Shown here piece by piece: positions 185 through 43,944 of a stretch of 64,000 bases of DNA. Location: the NCBI RefSeq assembly GCF_004331675.1, contig NZ_SJSN01000017.1:1-64000 (forward strand), given 5' to 3'. How positions within the stretch are numbered: position 1 is the stretch's first letter; each line of letters begins with the position of its first letter. Under the pieces are notes generated by a model, which was not told the origin of the DNA, did no database searches, and was given only the letters and a program-made list of their open reading frames with translations. The position numbers were made by a program, and so were the translations under genes. The stretch is from Pedobacter frigidisoli (GTDB taxonomy: Bacteria > Bacteroidota > Bacteroidia > Sphingobacteriales > Sphingobacteriaceae).

Positions 185-551
185 GCCTAAAGATAGTTCT
201 TAATCGCCTTGCGTCACCCAAATTGGCGATGCAAATACCGTAACTAACATAAGATCAAGTCGTTGTGAAATTTATTAAAAAATCATGGCGAAGTCAGGAG
301 TATCGAGTAAAACAAAATTTAAAAACAATAAAAGGATGCCGCTGCAATAGGGTTTAGGTAAATCACTTAGAAGCATTTGGCCAGAAAACCTCTGTAGAAA
401 ATAAATTTATTTACTTTATTTTGCTTACACGCTTTCACGAACATTCGGAATATCGCTGCCATTCGGATAATTGTGTAATCCTTAAACAGAGAAACCTTAT
501 GGCATAAAAAAGCCGCCCAAAATTTTGAGCGGCTTATATAATTTGATAAAT
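185..551. other. Gene-free stretch between transposase and DUF3575 pseudogene
   Basis: About 370 bases separate the transposase start from the end of the frameshifted barrel gene. It should contain the end of the insertion sequence, but no clear inverted repeat was recognised. The only supported element is the minus-strand terminator at 504-536. Open frames in this stretch have no family resemblance or start context that I trust. Confidence 0.5.
504..536 (-). terminator. Rho-independent terminator after DUF3575 pseudogene
   Basis: Read on the minus strand, an AGCCGCTCAAAA arm pairs with TTTTGGGCGGCT and is followed by a run of T. It lies 16 bases past the inferred stop codon at 552, as expected for the end of that transcription unit. 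Confidence 0.8.
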
Positions 552-1227
552 TTAGAAACGGTAACCAATACCCAAATTGGCACGAATACCTGCCCACTTT
601 CCAAATCTTTTAACTCATCTCTTAACGATTGTTGTTCTTGAAGTGTTAAGGTTTTCGTACCGCTGATTTTACCTTTAGAAAAACCATATTGAGGACCAAA
701 AATAGACCAATCGAAATAAACCTTGTTGGCGATTTTCCATTGTGCACCAATTAAAACTCCTGCAGTAAATGTGGTTAAATTGCCGCTTAAAGGAATGTAT
801 TCTTGTTTGTTATTCACAGTAAATTCATAATCAATTTTGCACTGTAATTTGCTAAACGTAAGAAAGGAGCAACATAAAAGCCTTTAAATACATCCTTACC
901 AAAATACCATTTAACCTCTGGCGTTATGGCGAAGTTGCTTAGTTTTAAGCTACCAATCTGTTCATCAGCAGAATCAAAAGAAGAACTAAAAGGAATTGAA
1001 CTTTTGGGCATTAAACGAACGCCTACACCAACTGTCATTTTTTTGTGAATAGCTCGTTCGTACTGGATGTTAACCGATTTGAATAAGAAAGAGCCAAAAT
1101 TCAGTTTAACTAGGTTTTTACCCCTATCTAATGCCGCAGTTTGTGTTGTTTGTGCAAAACTGTTAGATGAATAGAATAAGCCAATAACCAAAGTTAAGGC
1201 TAACGTTTTTGTAAAATTTAGATTCAT
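552..1227 (-). pseudogene. DUF3575-like outer-membrane beta-barrel protein, two frameshifts
   Basis: The N-terminal part from the ATG at 1227 has a signal peptide ending in SFAQ, then barrel-like strands such as VNIQYERA, TVGVGVRLMP and EVKWYFGKD. The frame breaks at a T run (forward strand) at 835-838; restoring one A gives ANYSAKIDYEF and continues into VNNKQEYIP. A second break at 598-600 is repaired the same way and yields the ending KWAGIRANLGIGYRF with a stop at 552. The repaired length is about 225 residues with a terminal aromatic residue, typical of outer-membrane barrels. DUF3575 is my family assignment from the pattern. Either the gene has decayed or the assembly has homopolymer errors. 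Confidence 0.7.
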
Positions 1228-1395
1228 ATTATTTGTTTGTTTTATACCGCGGTTGGCAATTATCAATCCACAAATCTAAATCATTATTAATCAACGATAT
1301 AATTAAATATACATTAATTCGAGTTGCGTATTCTATTCCCCAAGCGGGGAAAGAACTACTCAATATACAGCTTAAAACCCATTCCCAAAAAACCT

Positions 1396-1403
1396 TACCT
1401 TTG
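1396..1403 (+). promoter_or_regulatory. Bacteroidota -7 box (TACCTTTG) upstream of ruvX
   Basis: TACCTTTG matches the Bacteroidota primary sigma consensus TANNTTTG exactly and lies 54 bases before the ruvX ATG, giving a leader of roughly 45-50 nt. No convincing -33 TTTG at 19-21 bp spacing was found. Confidence 0.45.
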
Positions 1404-1457
1404 GTTTTTTTAATTTAGCTATGGTGAAAGGAAACCGCCATACGCAAAACCTTTTAT

Positions 1458-1874
1458 ATGGCTCGAATATTAGCTTTTGATTATGGCACAAAACGCATCG
1501 GGGTTGCCGTAACCGATCCCTTGCAGATTATTGCAACAGGCTTGGATACCATCCACCCGAAAGATGCGATTGAGTACATTAAAAAATATATGCTAACCGA
1601 GCAGGTTGAGTCATTTGTGCTGGGCGATCCGAAACAAATGGATGGATCGGACTCTGATTCGAAACAACATGTTAAAGGCTTTTCTACCTTGTTAAAAAAA
1701 GCTTTCCCAGCTATTCCGCAGCATTGGGTCGATGAACGTTTCACCTCAAAAATGGCGCACCAAGCCATTATGCAAAGTGGCCTCAAAAAAATGGATAGAC
1801 GGGATAAAGACAGGGTTGATACCATTGCCGCTACCATCATTTTACAATATTTTATGGAAACCAACCGTTTATAA
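1458..1874 (+). CDS. ruvX: Holliday junction resolvase-like protein RuvX (YqgF)
   Basis: This 138-residue protein belongs to the RNase H-fold YqgF/RuvX family, implicated in pre-16S rRNA 5'-end maturation and in Holliday junction processing. The three acidic active-site motifs are visible: FDYGTKRIG with Asp8, WVDERFTS with Glu93, and the RVDTIAA helix with Asp121; LGDPKQMDG at 55-63 is also family-typical. Length is normal. The ATG at 1458 begins at the family's usual MxRILAxDYG start. The O-methyltransferase gene starts 8 bases downstream on the same strand, so the two probably share a transcript. Confidence 0.93.
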   Translation: MARILAFDYGTKRIGVAVTDPLQIIATGLDTIHPKDAIEYIKKYMLTEQVESFVLGDPKQMDGSDSDSKQHVKGFSTLLKKAFPAIPQHWVDERFTSKMAHQAIMQSGLKKMDRRDKDRVDTIAATIILQYFMETNRL

Positions 1875-1882
1875 CCCCATAC

Positions 1883-2518
1883 ATGAGCCTAATAAACGAC
1901 GACTTACAACAGTTACTCATCAACTACTGCGAACCAGAAAGCGAGCTGCTTCAAAAAATAGACCGCGAAACCAACCTTAAAGTCTTGATGCCAAGAATGC
2001 TATCTGGGCACTACCAAGGCAGGGTTTTGAGCATGTTAAGCAAAATGGTTTCTCCAAAAAGAATATTAGAAATTGGAACTTTTACCGGTTATGCAACGCT
2101 TTGCTTGGCCGAGGGCTTATCAGAGAATGGGATTATTTATACCCTAGATATTAATGCCGAGCTGGAAGATATGGTTCGCAACAATTTCGCTCAATCAAAA
2201 TACAACAATAAGATTAAGTATATTTTGGGAGATGCTACCCAAACAGTAAACGATTTAAACGAAGTTTTTGATATCGTTTTCATTGATGCAGACAAGAAAA
2301 ACAATGGCACTTATTACGACCTTATTTTTGATCGTGTTAGCCCGGGCGGAGTCATCATTGTGGATAATGTGCTGTGGAGTGGAAAAGTACTTCAAGATAA
2401 ACAAGACAAAGACACCAAGAATATTATTAGTTTTAATGATAAAATAGCTGCAGATGAACGGGTTGAAAAATTAATTCTCCCTGTTAGAGATGGGTTATTT
2501 ATGATTAGGAAGAAATGA
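1883..2518 (+). CDS. O-methyltransferase, SAM-dependent (methyltransferase family 3, COMT-like)
   Basis: A 211-residue soluble class I methyltransferase. The SAM-binding loop EIGTFTGYATLCLAEGL lies at about residues 63-79, the acidic strand-end TLDIN at 87-91, and the metal/substrate motif VFIDADKKNNGTYYD at 132-146, followed by GGVIIVDNVLWSGKV. This order is that of the YrrM/caffeoyl-CoA O-methyltransferase group, in which the Asp/Asn residues bind a divalent metal. The natural substrate cannot be inferred from sequence. It follows ruvX by 8 bases. A palindromic repeat begins 4 bases after its stop and may act as transcript end. Confidence 0.9.
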   Translation: MSLINDDLQQLLINYCEPESELLQKIDRETNLKVLMPRMLSGHYQGRVLSMLSKMVSPKRILEIGTFTGYATLCLAEGLSENGIIYTLDINAELEDMVRNNFAQSKYNNKIKYILGDATQTVNDLNEVFDIVFIDADKKNNGTYYDLIFDRVSPGGVIIVDNVLWSGKVLQDKQDKDTKNIISFNDKIAADERVEKLILPVRDGLFMIRKK

Positions 2519-2522
2519 AAAT

Positions 2523-2582
2523 CGTCATTGCGAGGCACCAAGCAATCTGTTGATTAAGATTGCTTCGTGCCTCGCAATGACG
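2523..2582. repeat. Palindromic intergenic repeat, family CGTCATTGCGAGGC, copy 1
   Basis: Two 26-base arms, 2523-2548 and 2557-2582, are inverted copies with one mismatch around an 8-base loop. The outer ends read CGTCATTGCGAGGC and GCCTCGCAATGACG. A second copy is at 18948-19028. The element sits directly after the O-methyltransferase stop codon. Confidence 0.9.
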
Positions 2583-2597
2583 GAAAATAATAAAAAA

Positions 2598-3266
2598 ATG
2601 AAAAGAATATTTACCCTTTGCCTATTCCTCTTAACAGGAATTATTGCAAAAGCACAAAGCACTGCAGATTATATTGCCGCTCACGTCGATTTTGCACAAG
2701 GTTTAATGCGTGATCACAAAATTCCGGCAAGTATTATTCTAGCGGTTGCCATCCATGAATCTGCGGCTGGAAACAGTAGAATTGCACAATATTTAAACAA
2801 TCATTTTGGGGTTAAAGGTCCGAATACGAATATGGAGATTCATTCTGCTTATCGCGATTATGAAAATGCGGATGAATCTTACAGTCATTTTGTAGAAATA
2901 ATGGAAACTCGCGAACCGTTTAACAATTTGTTTTCCAAGTACGATCAATACGATTACAGAGGCTGGGCTAGGGGAATTCAGCGATCGGGATATGCTCACA
3001 GCAGAACTTGGGCAAGTCAGGTGATTGCACTGGTAAAAAAATATGAGCTTTACCAATACGATGAACGCCCCGAAGGTTATGAAGAACCGGTTTACAAAAC
3101 GCCTGCTTATCGTAAGAAAAAAATTGCATCCAAATCATATACGACAAAAGCTGGAGATAATTTAAGCCTAATCGCCAAAAAGAAAGGTACAACAGTTAAA
3201 TCTATTCAGAAAAAGAATGGCCTAAAAAACATTAACCTCAAACCCGGACAGAAGTTGAAGTTCTAG
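2598..3266 (+). CDS. Secreted N-acetylglucosaminidase with C-terminal LysM (wall hydrolase)
   Basis: I chose the ATG at 2598 because it gives a proper signal peptide (MKRIFTLCLFLLTGIIAKAQ); an upstream in-frame ATG would start inside the palindromic repeat. The mature part holds a mannosyl-glycoprotein endo-beta-N-acetylglucosaminidase-like domain (GH73 type) at about residues 22-150, with the catalytic-site pattern IPASIILAVAIHES including Glu54, then NHFGVKG and GWARGIQRSGYA. A single LysM domain at about 178-222 ends with LKPGQKLKF. It should cut peptidoglycan glycan strands in the periplasm. A paralogue follows 39 bases downstream. Confidence 0.9.
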   Translation: MKRIFTLCLFLLTGIIAKAQSTADYIAAHVDFAQGLMRDHKIPASIILAVAIHESAAGNSRIAQYLNNHFGVKGPNTNMEIHSAYRDYENADESYSHFVEIMETREPFNNLFSKYDQYDYRGWARGIQRSGYAHSRTWASQVIALVKKYELYQYDERPEGYEEPVYKTPAYRKKKIASKSYTTKAGDNLSLIAKKKGTTVKSIQKKNGLKNINLKPGQKLKF

Positions 3267-3305
3267 ATTAAACCTAAAGTAAATATCATTTCAAAAATAT
3301 TATAA

Positions 3306-4169
3306 ATGCGCAAATTCATCCATTCCAACAATTATCCATCCCTTCATTTACTAATCATTATTGCAGTGCTTTTTTTCAGCTCTTGTGCTTCGAGAAAAAT
3401 TACCAAGAACAATAATCAAATCGAAAAAGCTGCAAATAAGGCAAACAACAATAGCTATAAAAGCTACAATACATTAAGTTATATTGATGAATTTAAGGGT
3501 GTAGCGATAGAGGAAATGAATGCATTCGGCATTCCTGCAAGTATTACCTTGGCGCAAGGTATTTTAGAATCGGGTAGTGGCAACAGCGATTTAGCCAAAT
3601 ATGCAAACAATCACTTTGGCATTAAATGCACATCAGATTGGAAAGGGAAAAATTACTTTCGAGATGATGACCAAAAAAATGATTGCTTTAGGGTTTATAA
3701 GGACGCTCGCGAATCATTCAAGGATCATTCAGAATTCTTAAAACGTAAACGTTATAGTTTTCTATTTCAGCTGGATAAAAACGATTATAAAAGCTGGGCA
3801 CAGGGTTTAAAAACTGCCGGTTATGCCACGAATCCGAAATATCCAGATCTGTTGATTAATACCATCGAAAAATATCAACTTCACCAATACGATCAATCTG
3901 AAAGCGAAAAGCAGAAAATCGCCCGAGAGGATCGTGTTTTTACGGAGATTAATGAAAACATCCCTCAAGAGAAGAAGAAATTTACACCAGTTGAAACTCC
4001 GCCAGTAGGCGCTAAACCAATTTTAGCTGATGGCACTTATACTGTGATTAAGGGCGATACGCTATACAACATTGCCAAACGCTTCAATCTCACTGTAGAT
4101 CAACTGAAAATGCTAAACGAAATGACTGCCGATGCCATAAAACTTGGACAAGTACTTAAGGTTAAATAA
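3306..4169 (+). CDS. Glucosaminidase lipoprotein with C-terminal LysM
   Basis: This 287-residue paralogue of the preceding gene has a lipoprotein signal ending LFFSSCAS, with the lipidated Cys at 27, so it is probably anchored in a membrane rather than soluble. The glucosaminidase domain (about 60-200) carries GIPASITLAQGILESGSGNS with the expected catalytic Glu, NHFGIKC, and GLKTAGYATNPKYP. A polar linker leads to a LysM domain at about 243-287 (YTVIKGDTLYNIAKRFNLT). The tandem arrangement suggests duplication and division of labour between a soluble and a membrane-bound hydrolase. Sure of family, unsure of physiological role. Confidence 0.9.
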   Translation: MRKFIHSNNYPSLHLLIIIAVLFFSSCASRKITKNNNQIEKAANKANNNSYKSYNTLSYIDEFKGVAIEEMNAFGIPASITLAQGILESGSGNSDLAKYANNHFGIKCTSDWKGKNYFRDDDQKNDCFRVYKDARESFKDHSEFLKRKRYSFLFQLDKNDYKSWAQGLKTAGYATNPKYPDLLINTIEKYQLHQYDQSESEKQKIAREDRVFTEINENIPQEKKKFTPVETPPVGAKPILADGTYTVIKGDTLYNIAKRFNLTVDQLKMLNEMTADAIKLGQVLKVK

Positions 4170-40246: not shown

Positions 40247-43200
40247 CTAATTAAAACTAAACTCCCCAACCAAATTCCCATTCTTATTATCAGCCGCCAT
40301 TGGCAATACAACCACTTTCCTTTGTTGTTTGCCAGTTGCGTATCTCGTATAAATCTCTGCAGTAACGGTTGTTGGTCCGCTGATATTGATTTGCCTATCG
40401 CCAAAATAATTCACCTCAATCTTGTATTTCCCTTTTACAGCTTTTTTAATCATAAATTGCTCCGGACCATAACCAGATGTAAAATCGTTGCTAATTCTAC
40501 CACCAATTTTTGTCCGGTTATTTCCATAGTAACCCTTTTCACCAGTTGGGTCGGTTAGCCACAAATCGATATCAGTATCATTTTTATTCCAATTTAAAAC
40601 CACACGAACATCAACAGGCAATGGCTGAATTAGTCTTTTATCGATTCCTTTCGTGCTTAGCTTATCGCCATGTTTGGCAATTAAGTTATTGATCTCAGAA
40701 ATGATAATCTCTTCAATTCCCTGATCGCGATCTGCAGTTTGCGAGTTATAACTTTGGGTTAAAACCTTATATAAATTATCCAAAGCTTTTTGATATTGAC
40801 CCGCATCGGCCAATGCCAAGGCGTAATCACGGTAACTTTGCGCATCCATTGGGCGCCATTGCAAAACCTTTTGCGTGATAAAAATTTCATCACTATAATT
40901 TCCGGTTTGCTTTAATTTATAAGCGAGGGTTTTGTATAAATCGGCATTCTCCAAATCTAAATCGGCAATGTTACTTAAAATGGTTAAAGCCCTTACACTG
41001 TCTTTTTGCTGATAAAACCAATTGGCAACATCAAAATAAAACATTGGTGTACTAATATAATTTGGGCGCATTTTAAGATAGGCTGCATAGGCACTGTCTG
41101 GTTTTCCAACCAGGTTTTTCATATAATCTTTATCGCTTTTAAATTCAGGAATGATGATAGCTGGTTGAGATTCTACAACTCTCGTTTTAGATTGACTAAT
41201 TGATAATCCAGCGACCTTACCTTGAAGTGCTTGTTCTACATTGGCAACGGGTGCCGAAGCTAATTCTTGCGATTTAATAGTAGTAACTGAACCTGTCATC
41301 ATTCTTTTTTGCTGAGTAGCAGAACCAACAATCATCACTTCGCTTAATGCATTTTTTTGTTCTGATTCTCTAAGCCTTTCAACAGTTGGAGGTTCTGCTG
41401 CTTTGTCTGCTTGGATTCTGGGTGGAGCGGCCGGACTTGATTGCGGTGTTGAGCGTGATATTTGTGAACTTCCTTGAGCGGTTCTAGTTTGATCCGCAAC
41501 AATCACATTTTCTGGCGTTGGATATTGTTCTTTCCCTTTGGCTGGTTCTTTGTAATAAAAATCGGTATTCCACCAAGTTTTTAACTCTTTTGTCATGGCA
41601 ACCGCAGCATTCAATAAATCAGTTTTACGCTCTAAAATATCAATTCTTCGTTGTTTCAGAACAGCTTCGTAAGCTGGTCGCAATTCTACTGGCGGAGTAA
41701 TATCATAACGCAAATAGTCATCTAAATTTTCCAAAACAATTAAGCTTGTATTGCGAGTAACAATGCCAAATTGCTTGCTCAAAACGCTAATATCATCCTT
41801 ATTGACTTCGTATTGAATATCCATTTCGGCAATTTTCTTTTGCGCCCAAACACGGCTAACATCAATACTACTTAATGCGTGTTCGGTAGCATTTAAGCGA
41901 ATCGTTTGCTCAGAAATCACGGTTGTTCCGTAGCCAAACTGTAAAACGAATTCGGTATTTAGGCCATTCATAATTCCCGCAACAGACAATTGTCCATTTA
42001 CGTTTACATGCATAGAGGGATAAGTTTGGCGAACATCGGTTCCGTTTTTAATTCCTAAGAATTGAAGATTTTCCTGACTTAATTGTTTAAATGCTTCATT
42101 TGTAGCCATAACATTTAGGTTTACAAATTGTCCCCCGGTTTTGAGGCTGACATATTTCAAGGTGCTATAATCAGCCTTTAAAGAAGTATTGATACAATGA
42201 ATAGGTTTATTTAAGGCAACAGTGTTTTTGCCAAACGTAGAAAGTCCGTCGCTAAAGAAAATATATTCATCCGCTTGGAAAGTTCTCGAATTTATGGCGC
42301 TGAAGTTTGTACCACCATCGTAAGTGATTTTATTCAGTTTTTCTTTTAAAACATCCCAATTTCCATTAGAAATAATAAATGTGCCAGCATTTTTGAAACC
42401 ATTATTTACTAAACCCAATTGAATGGTTAGATTTTGTTTCTGTTTGATAATCAAATCTAAAAGCGCCAACTCTTTCTTAGTGTCGCGTTGCAGGCCGCTT
42501 AAGGATGCATCCCAAATTAAACCGATTTGATTTGCCCATTGCCTTGGGCGACTTTGAACCTTTGGAAAAACATTTACCAAGAAATAATATCCATTTGATG
42601 CCTTTTGCATTTGCACTTCTGGTAAATCATTTCGTTTGGGCAAATTAATGGTTAAGCCGTTTTTAGATTGATAATTGGTTTTATTGATTTCTGCAACGTA
42701 AGTATTTCCAGTTGCCTTTAAATCGAAACTTCCATCTGGCTGCTCGCCTAATTCGGGTTTGATCACACTCTCGAAAACTGTTGCTTTTAGCGAAAAATTT
42801 TCGATGGATTGATTGTAATCTAAAGGCAAGTGATATTTTAAAACATTACCGCTATTAAATCCAAGTTCTTCTTCGTAACCCACAAGAATGGTTCGGCTTC
42901 CGTTTGCTGGTAGCGGATAAATTCTTGTTCTAAAGTTATTTCCTTCTACTTTCTCTAACAAACCTGGGTCAACCCGGCGACGTTCGATGCTTTCGAAAAC
43001 TTCGGTTGCCTTAGCTTTTTCTACCGGAACTGCTTCACGCATTTTGCCATTAATATCCAAAGCATATCGGCTAATGCTTACGCCTTCTGGCATTGGAAAA
43101 GTTAATTCGCCCTCTAATATTCTATTGCTGCTATTATGGAAAGTCATGGTCATTACCGTTGTGGCCATGTTTCCGGTAATTTGCACATCGATATTGAGCT

Positions 43201-43330
43201 TGCTTAGTTTAACGGCTTGCTTTTGTTCTTCGGTTTCAGCTTGTTGAACCTTTAAAACGGGCATTTGTGCCTGAACTAGAAATGTAATTAAAAATAGAGG
43301 GACGATGAGTAAGGTTTTAGATAGTCTCAT
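40247..43330 (-). CDS. VIT/VWA protein with embedded SusC-type plug motif, TPR and DUF2135
   Basis: This 1027-residue exported protein (signal ending FLVQAQ) has, in order: a VIT domain at about 35-155 (GELTFPMPEGVSISRYALDI, RTRIYPLPANGSRTI); a VWA-like region at about 280-440 (LIWDASLSGLQRDTKKELAL, IFFSDGLSTFGK); a segment at about 655-710 reading SEVMIVGSATQQKRMMTGSV and ANVEQALQGKVAGLSIS, the signature of SusC/RagA TonB-receptor plugs; tetratricopeptide-like helices at about 760-880; and a DUF2135 domain near 915-1015 (VRVVLNWNKNDTDIDLWLTD). VIT/VWA/DUF2135 proteins occur in Bacteroidota; role unknown, probably periplasmic. Confidence 0.88.
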   Translation of the reverse strand: MRLSKTLLIVPLFLITFLVQAQMPVLKVQQAETEEQKQAVKLSKLNIDVQITGNMATTVMTMTFHNSSNRILEGELTFPMPEGVSISRYALDINGKMREAVPVEKAKATEVFESIERRRVDPGLLEKVEGNNFRTRIYPLPANGSRTILVGYEEELGFNSGNVLKYHLPLDYNQSIENFSLKATVFESVIKPELGEQPDGSFDLKATGNTYVAEINKTNYQSKNGLTINLPKRNDLPEVQMQKASNGYYFLVNVFPKVQSRPRQWANQIGLIWDASLSGLQRDTKKELALLDLIIKQKQNLTIQLGLVNNGFKNAGTFIISNGNWDVLKEKLNKITYDGGTNFSAINSRTFQADEYIFFSDGLSTFGKNTVALNKPIHCINTSLKADYSTLKYVSLKTGGQFVNLNVMATNEAFKQLSQENLQFLGIKNGTDVRQTYPSMHVNVNGQLSVAGIMNGLNTEFVLQFGYGTTVISEQTIRLNATEHALSSIDVSRVWAQKKIAEMDIQYEVNKDDISVLSKQFGIVTRNTSLIVLENLDDYLRYDITPPVELRPAYEAVLKQRRIDILERKTDLLNAAVAMTKELKTWWNTDFYYKEPAKGKEQYPTPENVIVADQTRTAQGSSQISRSTPQSSPAAPPRIQADKAAEPPTVERLRESEQKNALSEVMIVGSATQQKRMMTGSVTTIKSQELASAPVANVEQALQGKVAGLSISQSKTRVVESQPAIIIPEFKSDKDYMKNLVGKPDSAYAAYLKMRPNYISTPMFYFDVANWFYQQKDSVRALTILSNIADLDLENADLYKTLAYKLKQTGNYSDEIFITQKVLQWRPMDAQSYRDYALALADAGQYQKALDNLYKVLTQSYNSQTADRDQGIEEIIISEINNLIAKHGDKLSTKGIDKRLIQPLPVDVRVVLNWNKNDTDIDLWLTDPTGEKGYYGNNRTKIGGRISNDFTSGYGPEQFMIKKAVKGKYKIEVNYFGDRQINISGPTTVTAEIYTRYATGKQQRKVVVLPMAADNKNGNLVGEFSFN

Positions 43331-43617: not shown

Positions 43618-43944
43618 ATGTTATTAACGACAACGCCATCTGTTGAGGGCAAGAAAATTGTGAAATATGTTGGTCTGGTTACGGGTGAGACCATTATTGG
43701 TGCAAATATTTTTAAGGATTTATTTGCTGGAATAACCGATATTGTTGGGGGTAGATCTAGCTCTTACGAACGTGTGTTGAGAGAAGGAAAAGATACCGCA
43801 CTAAACGAAATGCAACAATATGCGGCCGCTTTAGGTGCCAATGCAATTGTTGGAATAGATTTAGATTACGAAACTGTTGGCAGTGGTGGCAGTATGTTAA
43901 TGGTGAGCGCCAATGGAACTGCGGTTATTTTGGAAGATTTGTAG
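43618..43944 (+). CDS. YbjQ/UPF0145-family heavy-metal-binding-domain protein
   Basis: A 108-residue protein of the UPF0145 (YbjQ) family: [46 protein letters not shown] at about 6-51, then [27 protein letters not shown] at about 64-90. The fold is a small pentameric alpha/beta protein in known structures, sometimes listed as a putative heavy-metal-binding domain; a biochemical function is not established. Full length. It stands alone between a repeat and the convergent pfkA gene. Confidence 0.92.

Follow-up and report, generated by a model that had tools for sequence, protein, structure and literature searches.

Why should a protein that is no transporter carry, between two folded halves, the beginning of a SusC/RagA TonB-dependent receptor? 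This question is raised by a gene of Pedobacter frigidisoli, which lies on the minus strand at 40247-43330 of a stretch of 64,000 nucleotides (contig NZ_SJSN01000017.1, positions 1 to 64,000; hereafter the window) and consists of a single intact open frame of 1027 amino acids. An earlier note on this DNA had described a SusC-type plug motif in a protein with VIT, VWA and DUF2135 domains and had proposed that such a fusion docks onto, or mimics, a nutrient transporter. As a whole, this interpretation is partly supported by our analysis. The computed anatomy comprises a Ton box and the start of a plug in a disordered linker, from which we infer, tentatively and short of even confidence, that the segment is a docking site for TonB devoid of a barrel.

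The SusC/RagA-derived segment

The SusC-type motif is no chance resemblance and was recovered by two profile comparisons. NCBIfam TIGR04056 (SusC/RagA) matched residues 657-725 at model positions 73-140 of 981 (E 5.8e-16), and a custom model based on 21 SusC N-terminal sequences from the window's genome matched residues 656-725 with an independent E-value (iE) of 7e-18. With 58 bits, the TIGR04056 match lies far below the family cut-off of 368.25, so that the protein does not count as a SusC/RagA transporter, and the match to Pfam Plug (residues 675-715, positions 2-41 of 107, E 0.0011) remained under the gathering score. The segment thus comprises a Ton box, SEVMIVG, and the first third of a plug. 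Both strings on which the earlier note relied are present, though not within residues 655-710 as given there: VGSATQQKRMMTGSV occupies residues 668-682 and NVEQALQGKVAGLSIS residues 697-712. The Ton box was absent from that account; its counterpart in the SusC protein Bt1763 is 82-DEVVVTG-88, according to the part of PMC7782687 used here.

Behind the segment no outer-membrane barrel follows, as had been noticed before. Pfam detected TPR and DUF2135 in this part of the protein, and the AlphaFold2 model consists of helices and a small beta domain. A complete plug domain is not found either: besides the Ton box, the protein has no more than the first 41 of the 107 plug positions. A folded plug was rejected for the window protein due to a predicted local distance difference test (pLDDT) score below 50 over residues 606-720, and for the same reason the SusC-like segment is placed in a disordered linker, whose end it slightly overruns. 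The earlier note had held that a stretch both disordered and unlike a plug would speak against its reading; the stretch is predicted to be disordered, but its sequence nevertheless resembles a plug. Some relatives do have a plug that lacks a barrel, and in three of them (L184-L186) this plug is complete.

Two simple origins of the segment were dismissed. The gene is not a truncated or frame-shifted SusC gene, since its frame is intact and its product has strong matches in 29 of 60 genomes of the genus, the window's included. The whole-protein search of these 60 genomes matched many further frames, mostly of about 930-1190 amino acids, and among the matches listed nearly all of these aligned solely via query residues ~641-732. 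A recent copy from SusC genes of the same genome was rejected as well, because the best DNA match to 41 loci of that genome, which comprised 30 of its 48 SusC-type matches and 11 other stretches, was restricted to 39 base pairs (bp) at 82% (E 0.011).

Linkers in the genus, in the phylum and in other proteins

To what extent the segment is shared was analyzed at two distances. The nearest named relatives belong to Pedobacter, and an alignment of the 29 genus sequences revealed that the linker varies from species to species. Within these same-genus linkers, the Ton box and a helix of the plug (ALQGKVAG in the window protein) are the best-kept islands. Adding 14 named Pedobacter sequences and removing seven duplicates gave 36 distinct linkers, and for five of them the recurrence of 9-mers was profiled without any reference to SusC. 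The most recurrent 9-mer was the Ton box in three cases (ALNEVVVVG twice, matched in 27 of the 35 other linkers each, and ALHEIVVVG in 21) and the helix in two (ALQGKVAGL of the window's linker in 24 of 35, LQGRAAGVQ in 20), while TDFYYKEPA at the ordered edge gave 20 matches; in the shuffled control the maximum was 15 and the mean 0.07. Thirty-three of the 36 linkers could be aligned to the SusC model (domain E <0.05). In this alignment the Ton box columns are filled in 25-26 of 33 linkers, the helix in 31 and columns 116-124 in merely 11-17. Identity with the SusC consensus amounts to 22-25 of 33 in the Ton box core (columns 93-97), 25 and 24 for the Q and K right after it, 19-20 for TG and 28-31 for L, G, A and G of the helix, and is mostly 0-6 in columns 109-124.

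For the phylum, two samples are available. The less biased one is a draw of 395 genomes, in which the TPR-DUF2135 part was detected in 35; the locus was taken from 30, the window's included, so that 29 loci from the 34 other matching genomes could be read. A module of the TonB system was present in 19 of these 29 linkers, which agrees with the statement in the earlier note that plug-like segments occur in some envelope proteins of Bacteroidota. Fifteen linkers matched the SusC N-terminus model, the match in L092 being confined to the carboxypeptidase-like domain, three (L093, L094, L099) contain plug pieces of another transporter type, and L098 has a TonB C-terminal domain (TonB_C; PF03544) with 25.6 bits, barely above the cut-off of 24.6. 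All three further relatives detected in the genus of L098 (41 genomes) exhibit an N-terminal extension and a whole plug at the same place. The linker is hypervariable across Bacteroidota, yet often harbors TonB-system modules, namely a Ton box with plug start, a SusC N-terminal extension, a whole plug, plug pieces of another transporter or, in one genome, TonB_C. The same joint may hold a carboxypeptidase-like domain without (L092) or with a whole SusC-type plug (L184), or TonB_C (L098).

The second, named set consists of the best 80 of 501 confirmed loci and leans to the near kin of the window; together with the window's it provides 81 linkers. At E ≤0.01, NCBIfam detected TIGR04056 in 41 and TIGR04057 in 18 of them, besides other TonB-receptor models and BamP in seven members at E 0.00013 or worse. 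Pfam revealed Plug in 16, CarbopepD_reg_2 in 13 and CarboxypepD_reg in 11 linkers, and four other families in one member each (E 0.00096 to 0.0091). The SusC N-terminus model matched 53 of the 81 proteins (iE <0.01), and all matches of the 80 named relatives were situated inside the linker. Forty-three of the 81 linkers exceeded the 1% shuffle threshold of the Ton-box score, compared to none of 263 equally long pieces from elsewhere in the same proteins. Several Mucilaginibacter and some Flavobacterium linkers combine the N-terminal extension, a Ton box and the C-terminal half (C-half) of the plug. Several Chryseobacterium linkers contain one or two Ton-box-like strings by eye and no plug C-half, several of them scoring below the Ton-box threshold. 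When one linker (L142) was modelled alone, extension and plug C-half were predicted confidently and the Ton box with low confidence; the best match of this model in the PDB was a SusC extension (9hfj), and SusC 8aa4 ranked 25th. Two closely similar gene copies in one Flavisolibacter genome (L154, L162) both possess a linker with plug C-half. A recurring string like GDPxAxxxxDEPVG, with variation, was seen in linkers L101-L103, L159, L164, L168 and L178, which belong to Pedobacter, Mucilaginibacter and Flavobacterium.

Parts of the TonB system were also encountered in other proteins of the window's genome, which contains 48 SusC/RagA matches over the cut-off and 12 TonB_C matches (E ≤0.001). 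Two alpha-2-macroglobulins bear similar grafts, followed by macroglobulin domains and not by a barrel. The first (L062, 3043-9501, minus strand) has a SusC-type N-terminal extension, under the cut-off in Pfam and with iE 7e-26 by the SusC model, and a Ton box; the second (L063, 3551-8500, minus strand) has the extension and a whole plug. At a third locus (L181, G000:C1:298500-303000, 325-3974, plus strand), a BlaI/MecI-like regulator, recognized by eye, is followed by an M56 (BlaR1) peptidase, which contains two TonB_C stretches and, below the cut-off, a plug C-half. Next come an exported-looking protein of 217 amino acids, in which Pfam found one plug C-half over the cut-off and two are visible by eye, and a TonB_C protein, so that plug and TonB pieces adjoin here without a transporter.

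Proposed docking to TonB and its alternatives

TonB pulls on transporters. If the linker segment serves as a docking site, its Ton box would pair by strand addition with the C-terminal domain of a TonB as in transporters, the protein would thereby be recruited to, or pulled by, the TonB-ExbBD motor, and the VWA head or the TPR-DUF2135 tail would be connected to the energy of the inner membrane. In a milder form, the module would only keep the protein close to TonB or to the associated transporters, and no force would be involved. Docking to TonB seems to be the most likely explanation because the Ton box is kept in most of the genus, only N-terminal transporter parts are captured, TonB_C replaces them in one relative, and the Ton box of SusC is functional. 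Its deletion or replacement by alanines in Bt1763 caused growth defects on levan which resembled those upon SusD loss, as stated in the consulted part of PMC7782687. The earlier note had thought of SusC or SusD as partners. The Ton box, the lack of separate barrel matches and the relative with TonB_C at this position suggest that the partner is rather TonB. For TonB-type C-terminal domains, affinities of ~9 to 57 uM to N-terminal regions or Ton box peptides are given in an excerpt of PMC7593965. Moreover, whole plugs and one TonB piece at the same joint are hints that the motor may act on non-transporter proteins.

Which transporter parts are taken was determined with a full-length SusC model. 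It gave 63 domain matches in 51 of 97 proteins, all ending by position 307 of 993. None of the 63 matches begins past the plug end (position 237 of 993); 20 end past it, six of these at 271-307, where the alignment runs into the following protein part. On a tree of the C-terminal part of the 97 proteins, 16 of which are unnamed members selected by the analyst, the minimum number of changes was 12 for the SusC-type state (61 of 97), seven for the plug C-half (21 of 97) and ten for the N-terminal extension (17 of 97). It is clear that a second kind of donor, other than SusC, exists. Four genomes from two distant families have a linker that resembles the plug of a transporter encoded in the same genome but belonging to another type, presumably the one called 'Oar-like'. 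These genomes were picked for their plug-like linkers, and their transporters were found with linker L094 as query. All four linker-transporter pairs outscored 200 shuffles. When the linkers were compared with each of the four transporters, the own-genome one was best in three cases and near-tied in the fourth. In genome G179, linker and transporter are 78% identical in DNA over 182 bp, 32 of 62 codons being identical, and the proportion of synonymous differences (pS) is 0.52. A Pfam scan of L191, the only one of the four transporters scanned and lacking its 3' end, showed a carboxypeptidase-like domain and Plug.

A number of observations weigh against docking via the Ton box. No module was detected in 10 of the 29 linkers of the phylum draw, although in L077, which belongs to these ten, a Ton-box-like site scored 9.7, and the single TonB_C domain hardly passes its threshold. 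The window's own Ton box is degenerate, with a score of 11.6 compared to 29 for LNEVVVVGY of several genus members, and its 9-mer ALSEVMIVG was matched in just 9 of the 35 other genus linkers. Retention of the helix (31 of 33) is no worse than that of the Ton box (25-26 of 33), and columns 98-115, just past the Ton box, are filled in 26-29 of 33 linkers. The ratio of nonsynonymous to synonymous differences (pN/pS) was 0.245 in the Ton box block and 0.297 in the helix block, compared to 0.40-0.67 in other linker stretches, 0.079 in VIT and 0.143 in TPR-DUF2135, but the block values are biased because the blocks and the sequences used (28 of 36) were chosen by motif. On a plain alignment the values rose to 0.56 (Ton box) and 0.61 (helix), with pS near saturation. 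The islands could also have been kept by descent from one captured piece. In a tree of the plug bodies, a single origin of the SusC-type linker plugs was not rejected by the approximately unbiased test (p 0.467). Finally, no Ton box is present in the four linkers whose plug pieces resemble the other transporter type, their best scores being -3.6 to -7.3 at a threshold of 7.75. The Ton box was therefore rejected as the sole common feature and is not the whole story.

The main and serious rival is neutral capture, which we consider somewhat less probable than docking. Fragments of abundant transporter genes would recombine into a tolerant linker, persist for a while and decay, and the segment would be functionless. 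The 48 SusC/RagA matches of the genome, the hypervariability of the linker and the many members without a module fit this explanation, as do the changes required by the tree (at least 12, 7 and 10), the close match of the G179 graft to its resident gene and the degenerate Ton box of the window. However, the barrel makes up about three quarters of the gene and its pieces should then have been captured too, while all of the 63 matches begin ahead of the plug end; barrel pieces may, on the other hand, be harmful and purged. Moreover, neutral capture would have to account for the Ton box and the helix being better kept in identity than the rest of the linker, for such modules in the alpha-2-macroglobulins and the M56 protein encoded by the window's genome, and for the TonB_C domain that one relative has at this site.

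It is improbable that the protein docks onto transporters, as the earlier note proposed, with its module acting as a plug in trans that enters or competes for SusC barrels whose own plug has been displaced. A plug C-half without a barrel does occur in 21 of the 97 proteins, and closed, empty SusC transporters lacking the plug were observed in vitro (PMC7782687, in the part consulted). However, 76 of the 97 proteins have no plug C-half, the plug start of the window protein is short and predicted to be disordered, and TonB_C would not be expected in the place of a plug. Still less probable is that the segment works through the helix island instead of the Ton box, as a short motif for some other partner such as the TPR half, be it in the same molecule or in a different one, since its better filled columns and its best-kept 9-mer in the window's linker (24 versus 9 of 35) are opposed by the Ton box being the top 9-mer in three of five profiled linkers and recurring in distant genera.

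Docking to TonB would have consequences beyond this gene. Should a heavy-chain-like protein present a Ton box, part of the numerous TonB copies in Bacteroidota may work outside uptake, and a testable function could be assigned to proteins with a plug but without a barrel. In addition, the hypervariable linker offers a natural series (no module; Ton box and plug start; extension and plug; TonB_C) for testing the parts of the interface. A more far-reaching conception, which we consider rather unlikely, is that the Ton box/plug-TonB interface is used by Bacteroidota as a general docking code of the envelope. Heavy-chain-like, alpha-2-macroglobulin and M56 proteins would then carry transporter N-termini devoid of a barrel, or C-terminal domains of TonB, in the manner of interchangeable plugs and sockets, TonB-ExbBD would act on non-transporters, and the modules would occasionally be refreshed from resident transporter genes.

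The host protein and known systems

The features of the gene are compiled in the following table. The VIT/VWA/DUF2135 composition given in the earlier note holds, with VIT and DUF2135 above their Pfam cut-offs; VWA was not matched by the Pfam scan of the 1027 residues, and its assignment is based on Foldseek and on metal-site residues. The AlphaFold2 model (single chain, alignment of 51 sequences, mean pLDDT 80) had inter-alpha-inhibitor heavy chain 1 (6fpy) as its top Foldseek match (E 2.3e-23, 15% identity). The alignment covers 586 columns, the chain having 599 residues, and due to this length and the domain order the match is taken to span VIT and VWA, the aligned range itself not being printed. 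At each residue of the putative metal site (D274, S276, S278, T341, D361), the 51 sequences show full or at least 90% conservation. Fold match and metal site together mark the first half as heavy-chain-like, and the linker separates it from the folded TPR-DUF2135 half. By eye, no cysteine is close to the end of the likely signal peptide; the protein is probably exported to the periplasm.

Features of the gene in the window and of its product
Feature	Residues	Position	Strand	Basis
Whole gene		40247..43330	-	1027 aa: signal peptide - VIT - VWA-like - helical segment - disordered linker - TPR - DUF2135
Likely signal peptide (FLVQA/QMP)	1-21	43268..43330	-	sequence reading; pLDDT <50 over 1-21
VIT domain	43-152	42875..43204	-	Pfam PF08487, 94.1 bits, cut-off 26.5 (above gathering score)
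VWA-like region (rough bounds)	~266-430	42041..42535	-	Foldseek match 6fpy; conserved metal-site residues
Disordered linker	606-720	41171..41515	-	AlphaFold2 pLDDT <50
SusC/RagA-derived segment	656-725	41156..41365	-	TIGR04056; own-genome SusC model
Ton box SEVMIVG	663-669	41324..41344	-	position-weight score 11.6, 1% shuffle threshold 7.75
Plug helix island ALQGKVAG	701-708	41207..41230	-	filled in 31/33 aligned genus linkers; 9-mer ALQGKVAGL in 24/35 others
TPR helical region	~735-890	40661..41128	-	sub-cut-off Pfam TPR; model helices; TPR chains among Foldseek matches
DUF2135, within C-terminal beta domain	964-1011	40298..40441	-	Pfam PF09906, 52.2 bits, cut-off 22; model strands

An operon partner was rejected, because no cluster of neighbouring genes at the 80 named loci covered more than three genus labels. 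In the window, a small protein is encoded divergently at 43618-43944 on the plus strand, which we take to be YbjQ-like.

In open-access PubMed Central, no title on the present arrangement was among the matches listed, and no paper was found on a plug with alpha-2-macroglobulin, on a VIT domain with TonB or on BlaR1 with a SusC plug. Among the open-access papers listed for DUF2135 or the VIT domain, none contained DUF2135 and no title concerned such a bacterial envelope protein. Fusions with N-terminal domains of transporters are already known in general, as exemplified by the carboxypeptidase-like domain of PorE.

The window protein has features in common with several known systems. Like SusC/RagA transporters, it possesses a plug start and a Ton box, which is degenerate but above the shuffle threshold, and some of its relatives share the N-terminal extension or the whole plug with them. 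What separates it from SusC/RagA is the lack of a barrel, the position of the segment inside a VIT/VWA/TPR/DUF2135 protein and the low TIGR04056 score. With inter-alpha-inhibitor heavy chain 1 it shares the fold and the VIT and VWA-like metal-site residues, but at low identity, and it further contains a TPR-DUF2135 half and, in a disordered linker, TonB-system modules. PorE is likewise an envelope protein of Bacteroidota and no transporter; its carboxypeptidase-like domain, similar to the SusC N-terminal extension, is implicated in TonB contact, and force transduction by a TolA/TonB-like protein was suggested by the authors (PMC12204202, in part). Unlike the window protein, PorE is a lipoprotein with TolB-, CpoB- and Pal-like domains, and neither a Ton box nor a plug is mentioned in the sections of PMC12204202 consulted. 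The vWA force transducers treated in the same sections also combine a vWA domain with a proposed link to a Ton/Tol-type motor. However, they are tethered to the inner membrane and are proposed to transduce force as TolA and TonB do, whereas the window protein has a likely signal peptide and bears the transporter side of the contact. Pyocin S2, which is likened here by description and not by sequence comparison, is an imported bacteriocin and thus has a different role, but it also presents to TonB a TonB box situated outside a transporter and is dragged in by it (PMC9022066, in the part used).

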